The notes under the pieces: generated by a model
The model's database searches: none
What the model was told of the DNA's origin: nothing
Seen by the model: the letters and a program-made list of their open reading frames with translations, nothing else
Assembly: GCA_017515105.1 (NCBI GenBank)
Contig: JAFWHO010000001.1
Coordinates: 62,001 to 126,000, forward strand
Direction of reading: 5' to 3'
DNA: 64,000 nt
From: Candidatus Saccharimonadota bacterium
Lineage (GTDB): Bacteria > Patescibacteriota > Saccharimonadia > Saccharimonadales > Saccharimonadaceae
Shown here: piece by piece, positions 3,037-62,735 of the stretch
How positions within the stretch are numbered: position 1 is the stretch's first letter
Layout: each line of letters begins with the position of its first letter
Made by a program: the position numbers and the translations under genes

Positions 3037-4047
3037 TTATAGCATATAATAATCTTTGTACCACTCCGCGAAGCTCCTTAACCCATCCCGGAGCGAAGTC
3101 TCTGGCCGAAATCCAAAATCTTTTTCAAGCTCACTTACGTCCGCAAATGTCTCTAACGCATCACCCGGCTGCATCGGCTTAAATTCCGTATGTGCATCAA
3201 AGTCGTAATCCTTTGGCAGAACCCCAGCCACCACCAATTCCTCCTGCAAAGTTTTCACAAACTCCATCAAATCCTTCGTTGCAGAATTCCCGATATTATA
3301 AATCTTGTAATGATCTTTCTCTTTTGGCTTCTTCCCCACTATTCGTACTATGCCTTCAACAATATCATCAATATATGTAAAATCACGCTTACACTTACCA
3401 TAGTTAAAAATCTTAATCTTCTCGCCTTTCACGAACTTATCCGTAAAGCTAAAATACGCCATGTCGGGCCGCCCAGCTGGACCATATACCGAGAAGAATC
3501 TCAGCCCCGTAGTAGGTATCTTATATAATTTGGCGTATACATAAGCTAAGACTTCATCGCTCTTCTTGGTAGCCGCATACAAACTAACCGGACCGTCCGT
3601 TCTATCCTCCGTACTAAATGGCACTTTTTTATTGTTGCCATACACCGAAGACGACGAAGCAAAAATCAAATGCTCGACACGGTGATTACGGCACGCTTCA
3701 AGTATGTTATAAAAACCAATTATATTTGATTCTATGTAGCTATCCGGATTATCTATACTATTCCGTGCCCCAGGCTGAGCCGCCAAATTGATCACGATTT
3801 GTGGTTTATACTTTGTAAATAAATTTTTTACTTCAGTTTTATCCGCCAAATCGCCCCTCACAAACTCAAAATTATCATATTTCTCAAGCCAGCTAAGTCT
3901 ATATTCTTTAAGCCGAGGATCATAATAATTGTTTAGACTATCAAAGCCAATTATCTTAAATTTAGGATTATCTGCCGAAAGTCGCTTCGCCAAAAACGCG
4001 CCAATAAACCCAGCCACACCAGTAATTAAAACTCTCTTTTTATCCAT
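3037..4047 (-). CDS. NAD-dependent epimerase, UDP-glucuronate 4-epimerase-like
   Basis: Extended short-chain dehydrogenase/reductase of 336 aa. The nucleotide-binding motif GVAGFIG is at residues 10-16, and the catalytic YxxxK is Y157/K161 after SSSSVYG. The stretch GFDSLNNYYDPRLKEYRL near residues 34-51 is typical of UDP-glucuronate 4-epimerases rather than GalE. Together with the dehydrogenase encoded 9 nt downstream it would convert UDP-glucose to UDP-galacturonate for an acidic surface glycan. A -10-like TATTAT lies about 10 nt before the ATG with no Shine-Dalgarno site. Substrate specificity is inferred from the motif and neighbour; dTDP-glucose dehydratase-like activity is less likely. 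Confidence 0.85.
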   Translation of the reverse strand: MDKKRVLITGVAGFIGAFLAKRLSADNPKFKIIGFDSLNNYYDPRLKEYRLSWLEKYDNFEFVRGDLADKTEVKNLFTKYKPQIVINLAAQPGARNSIDNPDSYIESNIIGFYNILEACRNHRVEHLIFASSSSVYGNNKKVPFSTEDRTDGPVSLYAATKKSDEVLAYVYAKLYKIPTTGLRFFSVYGPAGRPDMAYFSFTDKFVKGEKIKIFNYGKCKRDFTYIDDIVEGIVRIVGKKPKEKDHYKIYNIGNSATKDLMEFVKTLQEELVVAGVLPKDYDFDAHTEFKPMQPGDALETFADVSELEKDFGFRPETSLRDGLRSFAEWYKDYYML

Positions 4048-4095
4048 TAATACTATAATATTACATTTTCACTCAAAAAGAAAGGTTAAAACAAA

Positions 4096-4122
4096 ACGCC
4101 CTCACCTATAAGGTAAGGGCGT
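4096..4122 (-). terminator. Intrinsic terminator hairpin downstream of the 4152 gene
   Basis: Perfect-looking hairpin ACGCCCTcACC / GGTaAGGGCGT with a TATA loop just past the stop of the minus-strand FISUMP gene; A-rich sequence on the left gives a U tract on the minus transcript. Confidence 0.7.
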
Positions 4123-4151
4123 CCCAAATTTTCTACGGAGCACTAGGCAAT

Positions 4152-5642
4152 CTAGTTAGCATCCATTACGCAGCGTACAGAATTCCCAAAACTACTCGAA
4201 AGTCCATAGCTCGTGTCTACACCCAAGTATCCACCACTATTACTTAACATAACACCAGATACGCCACTATAGGCATACGTAGAAGAGAAGAAGTATCCAT
4301 AAGAACCTGGCCTAGAATAGGACTCACCGTTACTATCACCTCGACCCGAGAACGGAAGACGAAGAGCAGAGATAAATGCAAGAGACTGATTATCTTCGCT
4401 TTGATATTCATCGTATAGATCGCTATACTCACCATCATAACCACCAGTAGGCATTCTCCAACCAGACGGACAAATGTCTTCAGTTACGTTAACATCCGAA
4501 GGGTCAGAATCATAACAATAACTACCCGCAGAAGCAGCACAAAGATTATAATAAATGCCCATCGCCCAATCGCCACCGACACTCACACTAGTTACATCCG
4601 ACACAGTCTCACCGCTATAAGTAGTCATGATATAAGGATAAACGCTACTGTCGCTCCAATACGAACCCACATCAGACACAGCATCTTGAGCTAAATTGCC
4701 ACCCGCACCACCGCCTGAGACACCGTTAAATAGAGCATCGAGCGCTGTAGCAGAGGCATTTGTATTAGCGGCGGTAATTACTGCACTTGCGCCAGATGCA
4801 GCGAGATCTAGATCAAGATTATCTAGAAGCCAGATGTTGCCATCTTCGAGCTTACCAACTCTATAAGTCTTATCATCGCGAATATCTTTGGCCAAAGTAG
4901 AATCACCGATATTAGGCACTGCTGCAGCTACTGCGGTTGTGTCTTGGAGATAGAGAGATATTGGCGCAGGAGCATTATTTGGATGAACCAAAGTATATTT
5001 CACCTTACCAGAGTAAGTATCAGCACCCTGAGTCTTTGAGATATAAGCAGCATAAGTTGAAGTAAGTGTTGCCCCTTCAGCATATTCACCAACATCAGTT
5101 GCTGCTAGCCTAGTGGCAACTTTAACGAAGGATCCCGGTACAGTATGATAATAATCATAATCGCTTAGAACAGTAATAGGATAACTCTCATAAGGATTTG
5201 CTTCTAATTTCATTGCCCAGTTTGACACATCGTCGTATTCGCCAGGACCAATAGCAGTACCAGTATCAATAGTGGCATTACCGCTTGCTGCAGTACCGAC
5301 TAACTTATTGCTGTTTGTAGCACCAATTACGTTGCCAGTAAAACCAGTTGCATAAATTGAAAAACCTGCATTATCGTTGCAGATAATATTCATTGTAGTA
5401 GTACCAATATCATCTACATATGTACCATTAGCAATGGTCTCATTATGGCTATCCATGCCTGATGCCGAAACACTACAGGAAAGTGGTATATTAATATTAA
5501 TATCATCCACAACAGTGTCAACCGCAGAAGTATTAGCAGAAGACAAAATGACACCAGAAATAACCGCTGGTGCAGCAATTAAACCAAGCCCCAAATACGT
5601 ACAGGATGCCCGGCGTTCTTTTGTTTTATTCGATTTATGCAT
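4152..5642 (-). CDS. Secreted FISUMP-domain surface protein (paralogue A)
   Basis: 496 aa with an N-terminal signal peptide (basic start, hydrophobic GLIAAPAVISGVILSSA). Residues about 40-230 form a beta-rich, Thr/Ser/Asn-rich domain nearly identical to that of the neighbour at 5808. The C-terminal part matches the FISUMP (Fibrobacter major paralogous) pattern: RDDKTYRVGKLEDGNIWLLD, cysteine pairs in YYNLCAASAGSYCYD, and EDICPSGWRMPTGGYDGEY. It is probably an exported adhesin or envelope protein; no membrane anchor or sorting signal is visible at the C-terminus. The first ATG is chosen because it precedes a good signal peptide; TATAAC-type AT-rich sequence lies upstream. Function in the family is unknown. 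It is a tandem duplicate of the next gene, with the upstream regions also alike. Confidence 0.8.
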   Translation of the reverse strand: MHKSNKTKERRASCTYLGLGLIAAPAVISGVILSSANTSAVDTVVDDININIPLSCSVSASGMDSHNETIANGTYVDDIGTTTMNIICNDNAGFSIYATGFTGNVIGATNSNKLVGTAASGNATIDTGTAIGPGEYDDVSNWAMKLEANPYESYPITVLSDYDYYHTVPGSFVKVATRLAATDVGEYAEGATLTSTYAAYISKTQGADTYSGKVKYTLVHPNNAPAPISLYLQDTTAVAAAVPNIGDSTLAKDIRDDKTYRVGKLEDGNIWLLDNLDLDLAASGASAVITAANTNASATALDALFNGVSGGGAGGNLAQDAVSDVGSYWSDSSVYPYIMTTYSGETVSDVTSVSVGGDWAMGIYYNLCAASAGSYCYDSDPSDVNVTEDICPSGWRMPTGGYDGEYSDLYDEYQSEDNQSLAFISALRLPFSGRGDSNGESYSRPGSYGYFFSSTYAYSGVSGVMLSNSGGYLGVDTSYGLSSSFGNSVRCVMDAN

Positions 5643-5749
5643 AAGTATTACCCTTTATTATTGTACCTTTATATACCTATATATAACATAACCATAATTA
5701 AAAAGCAATACAAAAATTACAAAAAGTACCTCACTCCCTTCTCGATTCA

Positions 5750-5788
5750 AATAAATCGTTCCCACATTTCGAATGGGAACGATTTATT
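5750..5788 (-). terminator. Long intrinsic terminator between the tandem FISUMP genes
   Basis: A 15-bp stem AATAAATCGTTCCCA with its complement ends 20 bp past the stop of the 5808 gene; AT-rich ends provide a U-rich tail in either direction. Confidence 0.7.
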
Positions 5789-5807
5789 CTCTTATGAAGC
5801 GATAGCC

Positions 5808-7280
5808 CTAATCATCCATAACGCAACGTATAGATAACCCACTCTCACGACCATAATTACTATCATAACTTATCATGTAATCTTCCACAAAGAGAATCCC
5901 CATTTGAACACTATGTTCTCTTTCCAGATTAGAAGCCCAAATTTCGCCATCGTCAGCTACATTACGATATCCATCGTAATCACTTTCACCCGAAAGAGGA
6001 GCATGCAAGGCAAGACGAAATGCTTCGACTGGGTTACTCTCGCCACGATAGTAGCCATACAAGCTATCATATTCACCACCAATACCACCAGTAGGCATTC
6101 TCCAACCAGCCGGACAAATATCCTCTGTGGCGTCATTTTCAGCAGAATACTCATCGTAACAGTAACTACCCGCAGAAGCAGCACAGAAGTTATAATAAAC
6201 ACCTATTGGCCAATCACCATCAAAACTCCCAGAAGTATCGGTGAAATCCGATATGGTCATATTCATATAATCCTTAGCGATGGCCGGATTCGTATAACTC
6301 ATTCCCCAATTTGAAGTCACAGACGCCCGAGCTAAATTGCCACCCGCACCACCGCCTGACACGCCATTAAATAGAGCGTTAAGCGATGTAGCGGAAGCGT
6401 TAGTATTAGCAGCGGTAATTCTAGTACTTGCACCAGTAGCAGTGAGGTCAAGTGCCAAATTGTCTAATAGCCATACATTGCCATCCGCAAGCCTGCCAAC
6501 CATATATTCTGTTCCGTCACGGGAATCTATAGCCGTAGCGGTATCACCAATATTGGGAACTGCCGCATCTACTCCAACCGTATCCTGAAGGGCAAGGTTC
6601 ACAACCACCGGTGCTGGAGCAGTGTTCGGATGAACCAAAGTATATTTCACCTTACCAGAGTAAGTATCAGCACCCTGAGTCTTTGAGATATAGGCAGCAT
6701 AAGTTGAGGTGAGTGTTGCACCTTCAGGATATTCACCAGCATCAGTTGCAGATAATCTAGTGGCAACCTTAACGTAAGACCCTGGTACAGTATGGTAATA
6801 GTCATAGTCACTTAGAATAGTAATAGGATAAGTGTCATACGCATCAGCCTCAAGCTTCATCGCCCAGTTGGATACATCTGGATCACCTGCAGAAGTAGCA
6901 GTACCAGTATCAATAGTTCCACCAGTTGCAGCACCAACTAGCTTATTGCTATTCGTAGCACCGATCTCATTGCCGGTAAAACCAGTTGCATAAATCGAAA
7001 AGCCTGCATTATCATTACAAACAATATTCATATAAGTAGTGCCGATGTCATCTACGTATGTACCATTAGCGATAGTATCCGTATGACTATCCATGCCTGA
7101 TGCCGAAACACTACAAGAAAGTGGCACGTTAATATTAATATCATCCACGACGGTATCAACCGCAGAAGTATTAGCAGAAGACAAAATGACACCAGAAATA
7201 ACCGCTGGTGCAGCAATTAAACCAAGCCCTAAGTATGTATAGGATGCTCGGCGCTTTCTATTTTTATTTAGTTTATGCAT
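5808..7280 (-). CDS. Secreted FISUMP-domain surface protein (paralogue B)
   Basis: 490 aa. The signal peptide and first ~230 residues are almost the same as in the gene at 4152 (shared VVDDININ, PLSCSVSASGMDSH and ISKTQGADTYSGKVKYTLVH), while the C-terminal FISUMP part has diverged: SRDGTEYMVGRLADGNVWLL, YYNFCAASAGSYCYDE, EDICPAGWRMPTGG. The last ~80 residues differ completely between copies. Two cysteine pairs probably form disulfides outside the cell, which fits the DsbA-like protein encoded at 43014. The pattern of constant N-terminus and variable C-terminus suggests diversification of an exposed surface after duplication. No anchor motif is seen. Exact function unknown. Confidence 0.8.
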   Translation of the reverse strand: MHKLNKNRKRRASYTYLGLGLIAAPAVISGVILSSANTSAVDTVVDDININVPLSCSVSASGMDSHTDTIANGTYVDDIGTTYMNIVCNDNAGFSIYATGFTGNEIGATNSNKLVGAATGGTIDTGTATSAGDPDVSNWAMKLEADAYDTYPITILSDYDYYHTVPGSYVKVATRLSATDAGEYPEGATLTSTYAAYISKTQGADTYSGKVKYTLVHPNTAPAPVVVNLALQDTVGVDAAVPNIGDTATAIDSRDGTEYMVGRLADGNVWLLDNLALDLTATGASTRITAANTNASATSLNALFNGVSGGGAGGNLARASVTSNWGMSYTNPAIAKDYMNMTISDFTDTSGSFDGDWPIGVYYNFCAASAGSYCYDEYSAENDATEDICPAGWRMPTGGIGGEYDSLYGYYRGESNPVEAFRLALHAPLSGESDYDGYRNVADDGEIWASNLEREHSVQMGILFVEDYMISYDSNYGRESGLSIRCVMDD

Positions 7281-7347
7281 AAATATACCTTTATTATGAC
7301 CTTTATATTTTCATATATAACATAACCAAAATAGAAAAGCAATAGCT

Positions 7348-8106
7348 CTAAACAGTTATTTCTTTTGCTTTTATTCGCCTTATTGCCGCACTCTTTGCGT
7401 AACAAACAAAATAGTAACATCTCACTAGAAAATTAATATCTTGCGTTTTAAACGCCTTCCAAGTCCTTTTCATAGCTCTAAACTTATTGTGTGACAGCGA
7501 ACTCCCATTCCCCGTCCGATAAAACGCCAACACGCCATCGGTCGCATAAGCCGTAATCCCCTTCCGGAGCACATTCCACCAAGTCACTATATCTTGTCCC
7601 CTCCTAATATTCGGCATACGGACGTCGCTTTTTTTAATCTGCTTCATATCAAACATCACAGTAGAAGTAAAAATCGTAGTATCCTTGAGAAGCTGCTTAT
7701 AATTAAGTGACTTCGGCACCGAGACCTTCTTCGCTTTGCCATTATTATAGTAGGCATAGTCACCGTAAATGAATGCATACTTGCCTTCAGTTATAAACTT
7801 CACCTGCCGCTCGATCTTGTCTTTTACCCAATAGTCATCCGAATCAAGAAAACAAATATAATCACCTGTCGCAACTTCCGTGCCTTTGTTTCTCGCAATC
7901 GCTGCACCACTATTCTTTCTCAGTTTTATAACTTTAATCCGTTTATCATGATACTTCCCAATCACCTCCAAACTATTATCGGTCGAATTGTCATCGACAA
8001 TAATTATCTCCAAATTCTTATAAGTTTGGTTTATCACGCTATCCATACACTCGTCCAAATACGGACTATTATTATATACCGGTATGACTACGCTTACTTT
8101 CTTCAT
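7348..8106 (-). CDS. GT-A family 2 glycosyltransferase
   Basis: 252 aa with the GT2 N-terminal signature SVVIPVYNNSPYLDECMDSV, a nucleotide-sugar binding IIIVDDNSTDNS segment near residue 35, and the metal-binding acidic motif FLDSDDYW near residue 90. The rest has RGQDIVTWWNVL, typical of the acceptor-side aromatic region. It transfers a sugar from a nucleotide donor in surface glycan assembly and belongs with the envelope cluster to its left. No membrane segment is present. An extended -10 (TGATATAAT) ends 8 nt before the ATG, giving a leaderless transcript. Donor and acceptor cannot be told from sequence. Confidence 0.85.
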   Translation of the reverse strand: MKKVSVVIPVYNNSPYLDECMDSVINQTYKNLEIIIVDDNSTDNSLEVIGKYHDKRIKVIKLRKNSGAAIARNKGTEVATGDYICFLDSDDYWVKDKIERQVKFITEGKYAFIYGDYAYYNNGKAKKVSVPKSLNYKQLLKDTTIFTSTVMFDMKQIKKSDVRMPNIRRGQDIVTWWNVLRKGITAYATDGVLAFYRTGNGSSLSHNKFRAMKRTWKAFKTQDINFLVRCYYFVCYAKSAAIRRIKAKEITV

Positions 8107-8171
8107 TTACCCCCATTATATCACTAAGCTCCAGATAGACTACTATTTTGGTTTTATCATCATAAGACTAC

Positions 8172-8200
8172 TTGCACGAATAATTCGATTAATATATAAT
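8172..8200 (+). promoter_or_regulatory. Sigma70 promoter for a candidate small RNA
   Basis: TTGCAC at 8172-8177, 17-bp spacer, TATAAT at 8195-8200. No open reading frame follows before the terminator at 8248. Confidence 0.6.
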
Positions 8201-8206
8201 GAAAGT

Positions 8207-8277
8207 GAGGAAGTGCCTCTAGGAGACACCCCCCTCGGGTTGGATTTCTAACTAGCTTTCGCTAGTTAGATTTTTTA
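8207..8277 (+). ncRNA. Candidate small structured RNA, about 70 nt
   Basis: A full promoter (8172-8200) is followed within 50 nt by a 9-bp intrinsic terminator hairpin CTAACTAGC / GCTAGTTAG (8248-8269) and a T6 tract. Between them is a GC-rich part that can fold as GAGG..CCTC around an inner GTG-CTC..GAG-CAC stem. There is no start codon with a sensible frame. It does not carry the SRP, tmRNA, 6S or RNase P signatures I know. It sits between two minus-strand genes and points toward the aminopeptidase gene end; the terminator may serve both strands. Identity unknown. Confidence 0.45.
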
Positions 8278-8346
8278 CTTCGGCGATTTCTTCGCCTTCG
8301 AAAGACAATGCACAGAAAACATAATTATTTGCATAAGAATAAACAA

Positions 8347-10749
8347 CTATCTAATAGCTTCTTCAACCGCTTTCGCCACCGCATCCCGATTCTCGGCAAT
8401 CAACTTCACCCTGGCCTCAATCTCTTTCAAGCCAATCGTAATCGCCCTAGTCACCGCCGTATCGCCAAGCATCGGCGAAAAGAATTCCTTATACAGTTCA
8501 AGCTCATCTTGAGTTCTTGCGATTCTCCCGATCAACATCGGATAATCACTCAAAGTTTTTTCGCCGCCGGTCTTCTTAATCAACTCCCAATTTTCTGTCA
8601 GCCACTTAAACGCCCCAGCACGCGCTTTCGGATTACGATAAAGGTACACAAATAAATGCAATTGGTCCTGAGACTTCACTATATCATACTTCCCAAGTAG
8701 CCCAAGCATTTTCTTGACCTGCGCCGCATCACGCGTAAGGCACGCCGCTGCCAAGTAATCAAACTTCACATCCGGATCAGCCACGTCCTTGTATTTCTTC
8801 AAATAATCATCGACCACCTCAGGCTGGAGATATGCCTTCGCGCAAAGAATATCACCCCGCACTTCCTTGTCCATCTTACTATAATCATCATCATACATCT
8901 CCGCAAGTCTAGCAAGTCTCTTCTTGTCTTCCGCAAAATAATCAAGCGCAAGCAAATTCGCCCTTAACCGAATCGTATCCTCATCATCACCCTCTCGCGT
9001 ACTAATACCAACTTCGTCCAACTTTCCATCCACAAGTTTTTGCACATATTTCTTCAACATTTTTTCTTCAGAAGATTCATCGTCAAAATATATCTTAAGA
9101 TTCGCAACCAACGCCGCCACCTTATTCCAAATTGCCGGAGCTGATTCGTCCTTAAATTGAATGAGGAGCGGCACTAAACTCGCCGAACTCTTGAGCCCTG
9201 ACTTCGTGATCAAATCGCGATCAATCAAAAGTCGCAACTTTTCCTCTAGGCCCAGTTTATCAAAACCAGCCAACCTCTCATTAAATTCGTCATCCGACAA
9301 ATCTAGAACATAATGCCCACTCATATCTTCCGTGATCTCCGGCAAAGGCCAATCCGATTTTTTCATCGGCCCATCCAACAAAAATCTCTTTTGCTCAAAT
9401 TTACGAAAATTATCACCAAGGTTCGTAATCACCGGATACCCAGGCTTATCAATAAACGCATGCATCAACTTACCCGGATCAAACTCCGCATAAGGTTTCA
9501 AGGCCTTCCACAAATCGTCCCCCACCGTATTTCCATACTTATGCTTCTCAAAGTAATCGACCAGACCCTTGCAGAAATTCTCCCAACCCATCAATCTAAT
9601 CAACATCAACATCAGTCTAGCGCCCTTGGCATATACAATCGCCCCATCAAACAAAGTAGCAATTTCCGCCGGGTCCGATACATCCTGGTGTACCGACTGC
9701 ACGTCAGTATAAGCATCACGCATCAACGCCGCATACGCATCGCCAGTAAAGAATCCTTCAAAAATCTTATATTCTGGATGAATGTGATCCACCGCATAAT
9801 ATTCCATCACGCTCGCAAACGATTCATTTAACCACAAATCATCCCACCATTCCATCGTCACAAGATCACCAAACCATTGATGCGACAATTCATGCGCCAC
9901 AGTAAGGGCAACACTCTTCCGCGTCCCAAGCGTTGCAACTTTTGAAACGAGCATCATAGATTCTCGATAAGTAACCAACCCCCAGTTCTCCATTGCCCCA
10001 GCTTCAAAATCCGGCAAAGCAATTTGATCAAGCTTTTCCAATGGATACGGCACACCAAAATTATCATCATAAAATTCTAAACTTTTCGCTGCAATCTCAT
10101 TCGCAAAATCCACTGTATCAATATCCTGCGCCAGCGAACAATAAGTCGTAATTTCCACTCCATGATCATTTTTCACGGTCTTGCCATGGAAGCGTCCAAT
10201 TACCCACGCGAGTAAATACGTACTCATCCTCGGCGTCGGCTGAAATGTAGTAGTTGATAAACCATTCGACGCATCCCGCGAGTCAATCTTCGGCATATTA
10301 GACAACACCGTATCAGCACTATCTGTCGTAATGGCAAGTTCAAATACCGCCTTCGCCGCTGGCTCATCAATACAAGGAAACGCTTCCCTCGCATAATGAC
10401 TTTCAAACTGTGTCGCCACAATCGTCTCTTTCTTACCCTTATACTCATAAGTAGAAAGATACGCCCCCTCCATGTTTTCATTCAGTTTACCATTATAATA
10501 TATAGTGATTTCAGCTTCCCCAGTCTCACATTCAAAAATCTCAAGAACCTCACCATTAGCTTTGAACTCGGCCTTAGCGCCATTCACCAAAACATCCGTA
10601 ATATCAAGTTTCACAGCATGGAATTTCACAGTCTCTTCTACAACTTTACCAGTCACAACCACAGTGCCACCAATCGTTTTCTCAAACTTATCAATCGCAA
10701 TATCCAACTGGTATTTTTCTGGCACAAAATAATTCAACAATCTTTCCAT
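8347..10749 (-). CDS. M1 family zinc aminopeptidase
   Basis: 800 aa metallo-aminopeptidase that removes N-terminal residues from peptides. The exopeptidase motif GAMEN is near residue 251; the zinc site is HELSH (H286, E287, H290) with the third ligand in NESF (E309), the HExxH-18-E spacing of gluzincins. The N-terminal beta domain and C-terminal ERAP1-like helical domain are both present, so it is full length. No signal peptide is seen, so it is probably cytoplasmic and feeds amino acids from peptides, useful in an organism with little biosynthesis. It follows ftsH by 20 bp on the same strand with AAAGGA before the ATG, so the two form a proteolysis operon. Confidence 0.92.
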   Translation of the reverse strand: MERLLNYFVPEKYQLDIAIDKFEKTIGGTVVVTGKVVEETVKFHAVKLDITDVLVNGAKAEFKANGEVLEIFECETGEAEITIYYNGKLNENMEGAYLSTYEYKGKKETIVATQFESHYAREAFPCIDEPAAKAVFELAITTDSADTVLSNMPKIDSRDASNGLSTTTFQPTPRMSTYLLAWVIGRFHGKTVKNDHGVEITTYCSLAQDIDTVDFANEIAAKSLEFYDDNFGVPYPLEKLDQIALPDFEAGAMENWGLVTYRESMMLVSKVATLGTRKSVALTVAHELSHQWFGDLVTMEWWDDLWLNESFASVMEYYAVDHIHPEYKIFEGFFTGDAYAALMRDAYTDVQSVHQDVSDPAEIATLFDGAIVYAKGARLMLMLIRLMGWENFCKGLVDYFEKHKYGNTVGDDLWKALKPYAEFDPGKLMHAFIDKPGYPVITNLGDNFRKFEQKRFLLDGPMKKSDWPLPEITEDMSGHYVLDLSDDEFNERLAGFDKLGLEEKLRLLIDRDLITKSGLKSSASLVPLLIQFKDESAPAIWNKVAALVANLKIYFDDESSEEKMLKKYVQKLVDGKLDEVGISTREGDDEDTIRLRANLLALDYFAEDKKRLARLAEMYDDDYSKMDKEVRGDILCAKAYLQPEVVDDYLKKYKDVADPDVKFDYLAAACLTRDAAQVKKMLGLLGKYDIVKSQDQLHLFVYLYRNPKARAGAFKWLTENWELIKKTGGEKTLSDYPMLIGRIARTQDELELYKEFFSPMLGDTAVTRAITIGLKEIEARVKLIAENRDAVAKAVEEAIR

Positions 10750-10769
10750 CCCGTTTCCTTTCTATTATT

Positions 10770-12686
10770 TTAATGTAGTTTAGCAGCCGCAGGTAGTTTT
10801 GCCGACTTCAAAATCGGTTCTAGCTCAGCTTCTTCCAAAGATTCACGCGCCAATAACTCGGCAGCCAATTTATCAAGCACAGCTTTATTCGCTTTCAGAA
10901 CAATCTCAGCGCGATTCGCTGCTTCGTCCGACAACTTGCGAATCTCCGCATCAATCAATTCTGATGTTTTTTCTGAATATGGCTTACCGGTCGTAATTGT
11001 ATAATAACCAGTCTCTTCGCCAGGGAAAACAATATTGCGAAGATTGGCCCCCATTCCCTCTTCCACAATCATCGATTTCGCGAGCGTCGCCACGTTCTTA
11101 AGATCAGACGATGCACCGGTAGTAATCGCATCTTTACCAAATATCAATTTCTCCGCGACACGTCCACCCATCGCCCGCGCCAAAATATCTTTAAGATCAT
11201 AAATACTCTTGTAGCTACGGTCTTCTGGTGGCAAGAACCAAGTTACCCCGCCAGTAGATCCACGTGGAATAATCGTCACCTTATGCACCGGATCAGAATC
11301 AGGCAGCACATGCCCCACAATCGCGTGGCCCGCTTCGTGATAAGCTGTTATTTTACGCTCTTTTTCATTCATTACCTTGGACTTTCTCTCGGGCCCAATC
11401 GCAACTTTTTCAAATGCCTCAACGACATCCTTGTTCGAAACCGCCTTGTGGCCTTCCCTTGCCGCCGTAATTGCTGCTTCGTTTGCAATATTTGCAAGAT
11501 CCGCGCCAGACGACCCAGCCGTCTTCTTAGCGAGAGCTTCAAGGTCCACATCGGCTTCCACAGGCTTGCCCTTAAAGTGTACTTTCAAAATCTCTAGACG
11601 GTCTTTTCTTTCCGGCAAAGTTACATTTATGTGCCTATCAAATCTTCCTGGGCGAAGCAAAGCTTTATCGAGCATATCAACACGGTTAGTCGCCGCCATC
11701 ACAATCACACCAGAATCATTGTCAAAACCATCCATCTCCACCAAAATCTGGTTCAAAGTCTGCTCGTCTTCACGGCCAGCTCCACCGCGCGCATCACGCT
11801 TGTGTGCCACTGCATCGATCTCATCGATAAATATAATAGATGGCGCATTCTTCTTAGCCTTGCTAAACAAATCACGCACCCGGCTAGCGCCCACGCCTAC
11901 AAACATTTCCGCAAATTCCGAACCCGAAATTGAGAAGAATGGCACATTTGCCTCACCGGCCACCGCTCGCGCCATCAAAGTTTTACCTGTACCAGGATCA
12001 CCAGCAAGCAGCACGCCACGTGGAATCTTCGCGCCAAGCTTTTCGTACTTCTTTGGACTCTTCAAGAAATCAACAATCTCGGTCAAATCCTGCTTCGCAG
12101 CTTCATTACCAGCCACGTCTTTAAATGTAACTTTCTTCTTATCTGGCCCATAAAGCTTCGCCTTGGATTTCCCAAAAGCCATCGACTGATTATTGGCCGA
12201 AGTAGCTTGCCTCATCATCCAAGAGAAGAAAACCACGATCGCAATAATCGGAAGCACCGTAAGCGCCACATCAAGCACGATCCCCCATACATTACTATCT
12301 TCCTTGTATTCAATCACTGGATACTTGGCTTCACATTCAGTTAAAGCATCGCCTTCAAGACCTTCGCAATGGTTTACGAGGCCTTGATCATACAAAGTCC
12401 CCGACCCATCTTTGCGCGACGTCTCGGTCGGCTGATCTTTATCTTTTAGAGTGATATCAAGATTCTGGCCGGTCACGGTAATTTTTGCAATGTTACCATT
12501 TGGGTCGTTTGCACGTCTAATCACATCCGAAATCGGCACTTCGTCCTTCTTTACATTAGTACCGTTCATACCGGTTATCAAAAAAGCACCAAAACATGCG
12601 ATTATCAATATAAACAGAAAACTCCGAATCATATTAGAAGCGTTTTTATTGTTTTTTTGCTGCATAGGCTTCGTTTTATCTGCCAC
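10770..12686 (-). CDS. ftsH: ATP-dependent zinc metalloprotease FtsH
   Basis: 638 aa membrane-bound AAA+ protease for quality control of membrane and short-lived proteins. There are two N-terminal membrane segments (about residues 20-40 and 135-157) around a small external domain, Walker A GDPGTGKT near 228, Walker B IIFIDEID, the SRH region LLRPGRFDRH, and the protease zinc motif HEAGH at 450-454. The start is a GTG at 12686, chosen because AGGAG lies 8 nt upstream. It is followed after 20 bp by the M1 aminopeptidase gene, which could finish peptides released by FtsH. Confidence 0.96.
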   Translation of the reverse strand: MADKTKPMQQKNNKNASNMIRSFLFILIIACFGAFLITGMNGTNVKKDEVPISDVIRRANDPNGNIAKITVTGQNLDITLKDKDQPTETSRKDGSGTLYDQGLVNHCEGLEGDALTECEAKYPVIEYKEDSNVWGIVLDVALTVLPIIAIVVFFSWMMRQATSANNQSMAFGKSKAKLYGPDKKKVTFKDVAGNEAAKQDLTEIVDFLKSPKKYEKLGAKIPRGVLLAGDPGTGKTLMARAVAGEANVPFFSISGSEFAEMFVGVGASRVRDLFSKAKKNAPSIIFIDEIDAVAHKRDARGGAGREDEQTLNQILVEMDGFDNDSGVIVMAATNRVDMLDKALLRPGRFDRHINVTLPERKDRLEILKVHFKGKPVEADVDLEALAKKTAGSSGADLANIANEAAITAAREGHKAVSNKDVVEAFEKVAIGPERKSKVMNEKERKITAYHEAGHAIVGHVLPDSDPVHKVTIIPRGSTGGVTWFLPPEDRSYKSIYDLKDILARAMGGRVAEKLIFGKDAITTGASSDLKNVATLAKSMIVEEGMGANLRNIVFPGEETGYYTITTGKPYSEKTSELIDAEIRKLSDEAANRAEIVLKANKAVLDKLAAELLARESLEEAELEPILKSAKLPAAAKLH

Positions 12687-58041: not shown

Positions 58042-61000
58042 ATGAAAAGATATCAAAGACCAGCAATACTCACATTTCTTGTATTAATAGTCGCAGCATT
58101 TTTTGCCTGCAACTTAATATTCTTTGGCAAAAAGACCGAAGACCTAAACGAGCTAATCAATATTTCGGAACTATCCGAAGATTTCGTGGAAGACTATTTG
58201 AGCTCATTTTCAAAGATTAGTCAAAACGCAGATGCAAATAGCACTATCATAGTTACAAGCACTCAAAAACTCGAAAACACTTTTGGCGCCACTCACGAAA
58301 TCGAAGCACCAAATAATCAATACTTCCTATATTATAATTCCCCATCCGAAAAAGAAGCAGCAAAAGAAAAGATCAAAACTGAACCAGGCGTTCTCTACGT
58401 AGAAAACGATTCCCTTTTTGAAATCACCGATTATAATTCTTGGGGAATCGAGGCGATGGGGCTTGATCAGGCGATAAGCGACTACAGCGTCCAAGGATCA
58501 GCTCCAGTCACAGTAGCCATTATCGACACCGGTTGCGACATGGAATTGTTTAATCAAAGTTTTGAAGGTAAAATTCAAGAAACCTACAACCTGTACGACA
58601 ATAGGATGCACGATGGTTACGGACACGGCACTCATATCGCAGGTACCATAGCAGAAGGCACTCCTGCAAACGTCAAAATACTCCCCGTCAAGATAGCAAA
58701 TAGCGGCCAAATGTCAATGACTACCATCGTTACTGCTATAAACTATATCACTTACTACCACAAAGCAGATGTCATTAATATGAGTTTCGGTAGAGTAGCC
58801 GAAGAAGACGATACTGCCTACTCGCAATATGTAGCCATCCAAGCCGCTATGAACGATAACATCATAAGCGTAGCCGCAGCCGGCAATGAATCATCGTCAA
58901 ACGTTGGCTACCCCGCTTCATTTGATAACACAATCACAGTGTCGGCAGTCGATTCCAACAAACAGCTTGCAGAATTCTCAAACTTTGGCCCCGACATTAC
59001 CTTTACCGCTCCGGGTGTCGATATTGTAAGTATTAACGGAACAAAAAGTGGGACCTCAATGGCAACACCGCACGTCGTTAGTGCTATAGCAATTTTGAAA
59101 GGCATCAACAAATCCTTATCAAAAGAACAAGCAGTCGAAATCCTAAAGCATGCCACCATCGATCTAGGCGACCCAGGTCGAGACGATCAATACGGCTACG
59201 GCCTAATTGACATGTCTAACTACTTAAATATAAAGTCAATGACCGAAGATACTTCATTTGTTGATTTTGAGGTCACCAACACCTCAGCCATTAACGCAAG
59301 TTTTGGCAACATTTCAAATCTAATGGATATTGGCGTCCAGCTCATCGACGAAGCCAACAACCGCTATGATAGATTCTTGGGCGACCTGGAAGGTTTAGAA
59401 ATTACCGGCTACGACGCCTTCCTAGCAGGTGACCAAGAAATTACCCTAACCTACAAAGGAATTAGTAAAAACGTCATAGTAAACAATGGTTCTTCCGGCG
59501 GCAACGATTATGCATATTTTGTCCAAAGGTTAAATAGCGAAGAGGCTACCATCCTCGAAATCAGTCACGCCCCCAGAAAGCTTTATATACCAGAATATAT
59601 AAATGGCTACAAAATAGTAGCGCTCGGCGACAATTCTTCCACCAAAAATATCTTCGTCGGTAAAGACAACTCAGAACATATTATCCTCCCAAGCTCCATA
59701 AAAGAAATAAGAAACCGTGCCTTCCAGGGCAAAGAAAACCTAAAATCCGTCAAAGGCGGCGCAGAATTCGTATCCGTAGGTAAATACGCTTTCGACAAAG
59801 CGTACAAATTATCCGAATTCGAACCAAAACTATCCGAGATTGACGATGCCGCCTTCCGCAGCAACCACTCCTTAAAAAGCATCACACTTTCCGATGATTT
59901 AGATTACATACCCAACCATGCCTTTTCAGGATGTACCAGCTTAGAAAGCCTTAATATACCAAGCAGCCTAACCGAAATCGGAGCATACGCTCTATCAAAA
60001 ACCAATCTAAGAAACCTAAACATACCAGCCGGCCTCACATCTATAGACGAGACCTCATTTAGAGACATGCCTAACTTAGAAACAATTACCGTCGACCCCG
60101 AAAACCCCGTTTACGATAGTAGAGACAACAGCAATGCCCTCATTTTAACTGCTGAAAACAAGATCATCCTAGGTTCAGGAAACACCATCATACCATCCAG
60201 CGTTATCACGATCAACTCTAGCGCCTTTTTAGGAAACCTAAAAATCCAAGAAATCCATACAAATAATGTTGAAAGAATACAAGAATCAGCATTTGCCGGA
60301 TGCGTAAACCTAAAGAAATTTTATATCGAAAACGACAACATAATCGAGAACTGGTCCGACTTTACTTTCTATAACTCTGCATTAGATTACGAAAGAATAC
60401 CGAATCTAATAGTCTTTGCCGAAATAAAATCAAACGGAGTGGATCCGTTTGATATAAGAAACAGCTTGTTGCGTCAAGGGGTAAGAACTTTCATTATAAC
60501 CACATCATTAAAAATAACTGCCTCCGCCGACCAAGAATACAAAGCATTCCAAAAAGCTAGCAACATAAGCGTTACAGCCAGCTATTCCGGCTACGCTGAT
60601 CTCTCGCATACCCTAAGTGAAGAAATCACAAACTATACAGTAGAATATCAAAACGGCGACTCGTTCAAAGCCGGTGATACATCGTTCAGAGTAAGCGGCA
60701 TCACCCAATATGGCGACATTTTCAAGGTATCTATCGCTGTATCAGTTGCAAAAGCCACACCTACCTACGAAGTCCCAACAAACCTCACCGCCAAGCTCGG
60801 ACAAAAACTATCAGACATCGAACTAACCGATGGATTCGAATGGATGAACGGCGACCAGACTATCACCGAGCTCGGAGAACAAACTTTCAAAGCCAGATTC
60901 GTCCCAACCGACACAGACAACTACGAGACTATAGACAATATCGATATCACCCTCGTAGCAGAAAGCGGCAAGACCGTCGTCCAGCCAGAAATCGAAATCG

Positions 61001-62115
61001 CAAACAAAACATATGACGGCCTAGACACCATCTCCAGTGACCTCATAACAGTTTCCGGCCTAGAGTCTTCCGAATACACCATCATAAGCGCTACTTCATT
61101 ATATACGAATGTTGGAACGAGCACGGCCTCCGTTAAGTTAAAACTTACCGACGACAAATTCAAAGACTTCGCGTTTGAAGGCAACCAACAAGAACATACT
61201 TTCACAGTCCAATTCAATATAGTACCAAAGAAAATCGCAAAACCAACGAAACCAGATGGTTATTACAACTTTAACTCAAATGAAATCACCTTCTATGTTT
61301 CGGGCTATGATGAAGAAACGATGACCATCTCGAACAACAAAGGCACCAATGCGGGAACATATGACACCACCATCTCACTTAAAAATGCTAATTACATCTG
61401 GGATGACAACACCACAGAAGATGTCGTCTTGCGGTATGAAATCAAGAAAGCCAACTTATCAGTAACCGACAACTCTAGCGACAGGACAATTATATTCGAC
61501 AATTCATCCCACACTATCAGTATCAGCCTAGAATACCCTTCCGGCACGACCTTGAGATACAAAGACGCAAACGGCGAATACACTTTAAGCCAAATTCCAG
61601 AATACACTGAACCAGGAGAGTATATTACAGCATACAAATTATATCTAGACGACAACCACACCGAATATTACGGAGAACATAAACTCACAATACTAGCAAA
61701 CTTCATTATCGATCTCGACGAGGACGTCAACGCCAAAGATGATAACCTTATTGTGAACCTAGAGGACCGGTTCTCGGTCATCGCAAACAAAATTCACACC
61801 ACTCCAAGCGAAAACACGATCGAGCATCGCGACAAAGACGGCAACCTAGTGGATTCCGATGTTATGAAGACCGGCGATAAAGTCAAAATTACGGTCGAAG
61901 GCCACGACCAAGAATACGTCATTTCCGTCCAAAGTGACACCGATGGTAACGGCCTACTCGAAGAAGCAGATTACATAAGTATCAAAAACGACATCATGGG
62001 AACAGCAAAACTATCCGGCGCCTTCAAACAAGCCGCAGATATGAACAATAACAACAAGGTCGATATCATCGATTACATCAGAATTAAGAAGAAAGTTATG
62101 GGAGAAAATTCATGA
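58042..62115 (+). CDS. Secreted subtilase with leucine-rich repeats and C-terminal dockerin
   Basis: 1357 aa. Signal anchor (residues 10-30), a prodomain-like region (40-130), and an S8 peptidase domain with the triad D162 (VAIIDTGCD), H195 (GHGTHIAG) and S339 (GTSMATPH). Then BspA-type leucine-rich repeats (about 510-770; AFQGKENLKSV, HAFSGCTSLESLNIPSSLTE), several beta-sandwich MBG/YDG-type domains (830-1230) and a dockerin at 1299-1353: DTDGNGLLEEADY..IKNDIMG and DMNNNNKVDIIDYIRIKKKVMG, two calcium-binding repeats. It is a surface protease, probably docked to another protein. TATAAT is ~45 nt upstream; no clear Shine-Dalgarno. The stop overlaps the next start, so both are made together. 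Confidence 0.9.
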   Translation: MKRYQRPAILTFLVLIVAAFFACNLIFFGKKTEDLNELINISELSEDFVEDYLSSFSKISQNADANSTIIVTSTQKLENTFGATHEIEAPNNQYFLYYNSPSEKEAAKEKIKTEPGVLYVENDSLFEITDYNSWGIEAMGLDQAISDYSVQGSAPVTVAIIDTGCDMELFNQSFEGKIQETYNLYDNRMHDGYGHGTHIAGTIAEGTPANVKILPVKIANSGQMSMTTIVTAINYITYYHKADVINMSFGRVAEEDDTAYSQYVAIQAAMNDNIISVAAAGNESSSNVGYPASFDNTITVSAVDSNKQLAEFSNFGPDITFTAPGVDIVSINGTKSGTSMATPHVVSAIAILKGINKSLSKEQAVEILKHATIDLGDPGRDDQYGYGLIDMSNYLNIKSMTEDTSFVDFEVTNTSAINASFGNISNLMDIGVQLIDEANNRYDRFLGDLEGLEITGYDAFLAGDQEITLTYKGISKNVIVNNGSSGGNDYAYFVQRLNSEEATILEISHAPRKLYIPEYINGYKIVALGDNSSTKNIFVGKDNSEHIILPSSIKEIRNRAFQGKENLKSVKGGAEFVSVGKYAFDKAYKLSEFEPKLSEIDDAAFRSNHSLKSITLSDDLDYIPNHAFSGCTSLESLNIPSSLTEIGAYALSKTNLRNLNIPAGLTSIDETSFRDMPNLETITVDPENPVYDSRDNSNALILTAENKIILGSGNTIIPSSVITINSSAFLGNLKIQEIHTNNVERIQESAFAGCVNLKKFYIENDNIIENWSDFTFYNSALDYERIPNLIVFAEIKSNGVDPFDIRNSLLRQGVRTFIITTSLKITASADQEYKAFQKASNISVTASYSGYADLSHTLSEEITNYTVEYQNGDSFKAGDTSFRVSGITQYGDIFKVSIAVSVAKATPTYEVPTNLTAKLGQKLSDIELTDGFEWMNGDQTITELGEQTFKARFVPTDTDNYETIDNIDITLVAESGKTVVQPEIEIANKTYDGLDTISSDLITVSGLESSEYTIISATSLYTNVGTSTASVKLKLTDDKFKDFAFEGNQQEHTFTVQFNIVPKKIAKPTKPDGYYNFNSNEITFYVSGYDEETMTISNNKGTNAGTYDTTISLKNANYIWDDNTTEDVVLRYEIKKANLSVTDNSSDRTIIFDNSSHTISISLEYPSGTTLRYKDANGEYTLSQIPEYTEPGEYITAYKLYLDDNHTEYYGEHKLTILANFIIDLDEDVNAKDDNLIVNLEDRFSVIANKIHTTPSENTIEHRDKDGNLVDSDVMKTGDKVKITVEGHDQEYVISVQSDTDGNGLLEEADYISIKNDIMGTAKLSGAFKQAADMNNNNKVDIIDYIRIKKKVMGENS

Positions 62116-62735
62116 AAAAAACAGTCCTAGGAATAATAATCCTTTTCGCAGTAACATTATTAACACCGATTAAAACCTTCGCAGCTGGCGGATTCAGCGT
62201 ATCAACTGAAGAGATAAATTTGCATCCAGGCGATACCGCCTCCTTCACCGTCACCGCCACTAATTCTGTCGGAAAAATAGATCTGTTATCTAGTGACGCG
62301 AATATCGCATCCATCGATACCGATTCCATCTTTCTCGATCAAGACTCAGCAGAAATCACAGTAACCGCTACCGGTGTAGGATCTACGTCGATCTCGGTCA
62401 CCGCCACCGCCAACTTCGCAACCTACGATGAAGAGATCCTAGAGGGCCAATCCTACCAAATTTCAGTTAATGTCACCGAAACCCCACAACCAAGTGACGA
62501 CCCTGAAAACAACGAAACGATCACCGACCAAGACAACCAAGACGATCAAAATGATCAAAACAACCAGGGCGACAGCGTCAAAAACACCGTAGCAAACACC
62601 CCAGACACCGGTAGCAACTCGCAATCCGGCGGTGGCGCCACCCAAATAATCATCTCTAGCATTGTCGGAGTTTCCCTCATCACCGCATTATTCGTAGCAT
62701 TCTTTTTACATAAGCGCGCAAAAGCACGCCAGTAA
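62112..62735 (+). CDS. Surface-anchored Ig/cohesin-like protein, candidate dockerin partner
   Basis: 207 aa. Signal peptide (to about residue 24), one ~110-residue beta domain (GGFSVSTEEINLHPGDTASF, TVTATNSVGKIDLLSSD, then VTATGVGSTSISVTATANF), an Asn/Asp/Gln linker, the sorting-like motif TPDTGSN, a membrane helix and the basic tail KRAKARQ. So it is held at the surface by a sortase-type signal or the helix itself. The beta domain has the hydrophobic start, PGDT turn and length of Big-2 or cohesin-type Ig folds; which is not decided. It overlaps the subtilase gene by 4 bp with GGAG before its ATG. A role holding the dockerin protease is inferred. Confidence 0.7.
   Translation: MKKTVLGIIILFAVTLLTPIKTFAAGGFSVSTEEINLHPGDTASFTVTATNSVGKIDLLSSDANIASIDTDSIFLDQDSAEITVTATGVGSTSISVTATANFATYDEEILEGQSYQISVNVTETPQPSDDPENNETITDQDNQDDQNDQNNQGDSVKNTVANTPDTGSNSQSGGGATQIIISSIVGVSLITALFVAFFLHKRAKARQ

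Follow-up and report, generated by a model that had tools for sequence, protein, structure and literature searches.

A dockerin-bearing subtilase and an overlapping gene for an anchored Ig-like protein: a putative two-gene surface-display cassette in Saccharibacteria

Background

To our knowledge, every dockerin receptor so far described is a cohesin. Some known dockerins are borne by peptidases: the double dockerin dDoc_0689 of a Clostridium thermocellum S8 protease has been proposed to tether its enzyme to a cell-bound scaffoldin, the preferred partner being the cohesin ScaD (PMC12484212), and a cysteine peptidase of R. flavefaciens with an X-dockerin is bound by the anchoring scaffoldin ScaE (PMC3573020; PMC12484212). 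Anchoring scaffoldins and monovalent adaptor scaffoldins have been defined as classes (PMC11557425). A dockerin protein, SEML1_0315, has also been reported as essential in a genetically tractable epibiont, where only glycan targeting was suggested as its role (PMC10633639). Our search of the literature found no case in which a Big_2-type Ig domain serves as the partner of a dockerin, nor any such earlier description for the dockerins of Saccharibacteria.

Here we analyze a locus in a window of 64,000 nucleotides, the whole stretch of DNA under study, which derives from an 811-kb, 99% complete genome of a Saccharibacteria genus. An earlier note on this stretch, made from its letters alone, had drawn attention to two overlapping genes as a possible surface docking system.

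Results and discussion

The dockerin-bearing subtilase and its overlapping neighbor

The first gene, ORF1 (58042..62115, forward strand), codes for a secreted subtilase (S8) of 1357 aa, in which the peptidase domain is accompanied by BspA-type leucine-rich repeats (LRRs), beta modules, an X-like module and a C-terminal dockerin. The peptidase domain (58507..59202, forward strand; aa 156-387) is recovered by the Pfam profile Peptidase_S8 (PF00082) at 6.4e-42 and retains complete Asp-His-Ser motifs in the right order (DTG at 162, HGTH at 195 and GTSMA at 337), while the repeats match LRR_5 at 7.7e-39. The X-like module (61783..61926, forward strand), which is alignable among relatives, lies immediately N-terminal to the type I dockerin (61927..62112, forward strand; aa 1296-1357). 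The dockerin matches Dockerin_1 (PF00404) over aa 1298-1352 at 24.9 bits (cut-off 22.9), and scores 32 bits in a profile search of the whole genome, which returned no other Dockerin_1 match. Its two calcium-binding F-hand loops, DTDGNGLLEEAD at 1299 and DMNNNNKVDIID at 1333, both bear the conserved Asp/Asn residues, and among solved dockerins it is best matched by the double dockerin of a C. thermocellum serine protease (8x39/8x3a; 3.9e-13). Pfam and the motif positions thus bear out the earlier description of an S8 protease with an intact triad, LRRs and a C-terminal type I dockerin with two calcium loops.

That description had further credited ORF1 with no anchor beyond its signal segment. 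The segment is indeed present, but, as a hydrophobic N-terminal stretch with no obvious cleavage motif in its sequence, it could itself be an uncleaved signal anchor rather than a cleaved signal. The protease might then be held by its own N-terminus, with the dockerin being vestigial or a stability module. We regard this as very improbable, given that both calcium loops are intact and that dockerins are kept on unrelated cargos with a receptor always adjoining: S8 domains with LRRs in the window and in G175, G265 and G298, papain-like domains in G290 and G216, and, in G196, a metallo-beta-lactamase fold accompanied by choline-binding repeats.

The second gene, ORF2 (62112..62735, forward strand; 207 aa), overlaps ORF1 by 4 bp (ATGA), its start lying within the last codons of ORF1, and a GGGAG element ahead of this start falls inside the dockerin coding region; the overlap and the element are consistent with translational coupling. 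Its product comprises a signal peptide, a single beta domain (62184..62486, forward strand), a D/N/Q-rich low-complexity linker, and an anchor made up of a TPDTG sorting-like motif, a membrane segment and a basic tail (62598..62735, forward strand), so that the overlap and domain order given previously are confirmed at the level of the ORFs. The genome encodes two sortases, and the motif of ORF2 is TPDTG rather than LPXTG; several related receptors end in a long cytoplasmic tail and have no sorting motif. A search for paralogs of ORF2 in its own genome returned only one chance antisense match. The pair is flanked by ComEC-like and MFS genes, as named from a reading of the protein starts. Scanning for promoters and terminators yielded no more matches than expected by chance.

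Elsewhere in the window (4152-7280), two genes side by side encode paralogous surface proteins (496 and 490 aa) whose N-termini are almost the same (..YLGLGLIAAPAVISGVILSSANTSAVDTVV). Among the relatives of ORF2, two depart from the usual form: the receptor gene of G265 (L133 6951-7010) is without most or all of the signal peptide and shows a small frame-breaking deletion, and in G600 (L205 around 4696-4900) the head domain begins straight after the dockerin stop, with most or all of the signal peptide lost. These cases may represent assembly errors, decay or a genuine soluble form.

The domain of ORF2 resembles Big_2-type Ig domains

The beta domain of ORF2 was modeled by AlphaFold2 at a pLDDT of 95. 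Foldseek searches with the model recovered the Ig domains of the S-layer protein SbsC as top matches (E 3.9e-5, TMq 0.70), and comparison by VIA gave Z 12.2 with an rmsd of 1.9 over 85 residues; for the model of the homolog from locus L135, Foldseek likewise recovered SbsC (E 1.1e-8, 28% identity, rmsd 1.7 A). For the ORF2 model, the PDB matches listed are headed by SbsC and PapD-type Ig folds, and cohesins are absent from the top PDB matches listed for the window and L135 models, a result compatible with some similarity to them. A profile search against PDB sequences also retrieved the SbsC Ig domains (E 2.4e-6). All 12 family members considered match Big_2 (PF02368) at E<=1, the best at 1.4e-7, with the window's own copy at 14.0 bits lying under the curated cut-off of 22.8. 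Hence, the domain is most likely Ig-like and Big_2-related, with SbsC as its closest structural relative, as judged from profiles and predicted models.

The earlier note had instead raised the possibility of a cohesin, an identity it regarded as unproved by sequence, while proposing a profile comparison with PF00963 and Big_2. This identification was not supported: none of the 12 family members matches PF00963 at E<=1, as against 9 of 10 control cohesins taken from the equivalent genomic slot of other genomes; of the two profiles, only Big_2 is matched, and by the window copy at the subthreshold score given above. Moreover, a PF00963 search of the window's own genome returned no match, from which it follows that the partner of the dockerin, if it resides in the same cell, is not a recognizable cohesin.

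Cohesins and Ig-like domains occupy an equivalent slot

The position of ORF2 recurs downstream of dockerin genes at large. A bitopic next gene, i.e. one that is close, on the same strand, and codes for a signal peptide and a C-terminal membrane segment, follows 31 of 55 ORFs with C-terminal dockerins, as opposed to 6 of 226 other ORFs (Fisher p 2e-20); among the dockerin ORFs lacking such a neighbor, tandem cargos, adaptors and mis-started ORFs account for many. This slot is filled by PF00963 cohesins in other genera (G030, G097, G008, G218), and the cohesin receptors of L080 and L181 share with the Ig receptors of L074, L076 and L077 a common chassis of signal peptide, head, PF12733 (cadherin-like) domain and membrane segment. 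A third receptor type, which we name AAW for its AAWNVHV motif, stands between the two in profile comparisons: the hhalign probability is 70 for the window type against AAW and 94 for AAW against cohesins, while it is 37, over a partial alignment, for the window type against cohesins directly. A distant tie between the cohesins and the Ig receptors via the AAW type is thereby hinted at.

These observations are also what could be adduced for ORF2 encoding a strongly diverged cohesin in an ordinary cohesin-dockerin pair, for slot and chassis equal those of true cohesins, the hhalign chain leads from one type to the other, and both folds are beta sandwiches. Nevertheless, we consider such a cohesin improbable in view of the opposing outcomes with PF00963 and Big_2, the convergence of models and profiles on the SbsC Ig domains, and the length of the domain, which is ~100 aa versus ~140 aa for cohesins. 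We accordingly continue to treat the head of ORF2 as a Big_2-related Ig domain.

Adaptor proteins combine the same modules in another fashion. In G216 and G245, a gene whose product joins an Ig domain, an X-like module and a dockerin lies between the cargo gene and that of the anchored Ig receptor; dockerins and Ig domains alternate likewise in G621, G662, G664 and G668, giving six adaptor genomes overall.

The slot shows further variety. At four loci in other genera (L117, L118, L120 and L127, from G107, G059, G066 and G009, respectively), the post-dockerin gene codes for a membrane segment with beta-rich domains that differ from one locus to the next, and these may be dockerin-receptor types beyond cohesin and Ig. 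At L094 and L105 (G294 and G207), tandem dockerin cargos, the second of which is S8-like, precede one large anchored protein for both. A KDTPAG motif is common to the heads of L098, L101, L105 and L109.

Exclusive linkage of the receptor domain to dockerins

In a six-frame check, each of the 35 receptor domain copies, which come from Saccharibacteria and Oscillospirales and include the sister type AAW, was preceded on its own strand by a dockerin no more than 133 nt away; 28 of these copies are non-redundant (23 window-type and 5 AAW). Large proteins of other genomes also contain Ig matches that are weak (E 1e-8 to 1e-2); as these seem to be Ig-like domains of a generic kind, they were left out of this count. 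Across the 295 genomes of the family, strong homologs of ORF2 immediately follow a Dockerin_1 ORF of the same orientation, and the same dockerin-to-receptor arrangement is seen in relatives from Oscillospirales and other Clostridia. In the genus itself, strong window-type domains (23 copies) are present in 15 of 174 genomes, and every one of the 15 belongs to the set of 36 dockerin-positive genomes (hypergeometric ~3e-12, uncorrected for phylogeny). The absence of co-occurrence in related genomes, which the earlier note had named as telling against docking, is therefore clearly not what we find.

The surroundings of the pair vary between genomes: by names taken from the protein starts, the flanking genes are mnmA/alaS in G233, those for an M16 peptidase and murD in G290, G216 and G245, and pth/topA in G196, G211 and G226. 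As the neighborhoods differ, the linkage is not a matter of inherited synteny. The pth-topA locus (L076, L079 and L108 in G196, G211 and G226, respectively) presents different display cassettes in one slot of one genus, which suggests that it is a hotspot of cassette exchange. A Saccharibacteria genome from goat gut carries at L132 (about 3378-11473) two full pairs of dockerin protein and Ig receptor, arranged convergently, tail to tail.

Co-divergence and a joint exchange

The similarity of dockerins to one another tracks that of their adjoining Ig domains, with a Mantel r of 0.73 for 23 pairs and 0.77 for 28 pairs (permutation p 1e-4). In the 14 pairs for which the X module was taken into account, the dockerin-Ig correlation retains a partial r of 0.68 after X-module correction, whereas that of the X module itself is 0.38 and drops to a partial value of 0.09 once the dockerin is accounted for. 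The receptor types also differ in the dockerins they accompany, those of window-type receptors mostly showing ..DY[IVL].. and those of AAW receptors ..SADLL..R.HLLG-like motifs.

The most direct case comes from two orthologous operons in the pth/topA slot, L076 (G196) and L108 (G226). Their cargos are 61% and their X modules 82% identical, but identity breaks sharply to 25% in the dockerins; the receptor heads are of different types and 38% identical, with the remainder of the receptor at 51% and ending in a common YSW-DVYKAKK tail. Conversely, G211 and G226, both with AAW receptors, are 65% identical in the dockerin and 68% in the head as against 42% in the cargo. With the break between L076 and L108 confined to the dockerin and the receptor head, both appear to have changed together with little else, even though, by virtue of their adjacency on the DNA, one recombination tract could carry both in the absence of interaction or selection.

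This caveat is part of a broader alternative, namely that the Ig-like domain is a spacer or adhesin, that the dockerin binds something else and that the genes were merely co-transferred. Big_2-type domains commonly serve as spacers and adhesins, and adjacency by itself favors joint transfer. In addition, a linked-chain AlphaFold2 model, in which translation of the L135 dockerin was continued past its stop codon through the signal peptide to the Ig domain, folded both domains (pTM 0.51) with no confident packing between them, but the signal-peptide linker had fused to dockerin helix 3, so that the model carries little weight for either reading; for this model, alignments with dockerin rows misplaced by MAFFT were dropped and the correctly aligned subset was used. 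An unrelated Ig fold devoid of dockerin binding had been set out beforehand as the outcome contrary to docking: the Ig fold is what emerged, which is half of that outcome, and what bears on binding is the genetic linkage and this linked chain. Against the spacer or adhesin view stand the exclusive linkage to dockerins and the presence of cohesins in the equivalent slot elsewhere, the co-divergence that the adjoining X module does not share, and the adaptors combining head domain and dockerin, as well as a genome with no cohesin of its own. On this evidence we judge it unlikely, and the two-gene docking and display unit proposed for this locus emerges as a strongly supported hypothesis from the co-occurrence without exception in close relatives, the co-divergence and the one joint swap.

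A proposed display cassette

Taken together, we consider it likely that the two genes constitute a minimal surface-display cassette, in which the Ig-like domain is the putative dockerin receptor in place of a cohesin. Both cargo and receptor would be exported by Sec, and the receptor would be kept at the membrane or handed to the wall by one of the two sortases. The Ig head of ORF2 would then capture the calcium-folded dockerin of ORF1, probably in a calcium-dependent manner, and the protease would thereby be held outside the Saccharibacteria cell; translational coupling through the ATGA overlap would ensure that plug and socket are made together. Candidate targets of the protease are host surface proteins, the envelope proteins of the epibiont itself or environmental protein.

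More generally, we lean towards the view that Big_2-related Ig domains form a second, unrelated class of dockerin receptor, which is dispersed as part of a mobile two-gene cassette, undergoes matched lock-and-key exchange, and is used for display by Saccharibacteria and some Oscillospirales. A second receptor fold, if real, would mean that the orphan dockerins of non-cellulolytic bacteria are to be read differently, and would provide additional orthogonal plug-socket pairs. The display cassette also offers a concrete molecular handle on the surface arming of Saccharibacteria.

Comparison with known systems

Dockerin-borne display of proteases is already known, and it is the fold of the receptor and its setting that are new. 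In fold, the receptor domain of ORF2 is akin to the Big_2-like Ig domains of SbsC (4uid, 4uj6, 5ftx), but those are repeats of an S-layer protein, and we know of no dockerin partner for them. The dDoc_0689 system parallels ORF1 in joining a subtilase to dockerins, and the serine protease double dockerin structures are the nearest solved ones; however, its partner is a cohesin, whereas the window has a single dockerin and an Ig-like receptor in the next gene of a reduced, epibiont-type genome with no PF00963 match. The ScaE system of Ruminococcus flavefaciens similarly unites a peptidase cargo, an X module with dockerin and a surface-anchoring holder, but ScaE carries a cohesin, in contrast to the window receptor with no cohesin match. 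Finally, in layout, ORF2, whose single module is joined to a membrane helix at the C-terminus, is comparable to an anchoring scaffoldin, and adaptors of the G216/G245 type, with one receptor module and a dockerin, are comparable to monovalent adaptor scaffoldins; they are set apart from both by the Ig-like nature of their receptor modules and by a single cargo per locus in place of an enzyme array.
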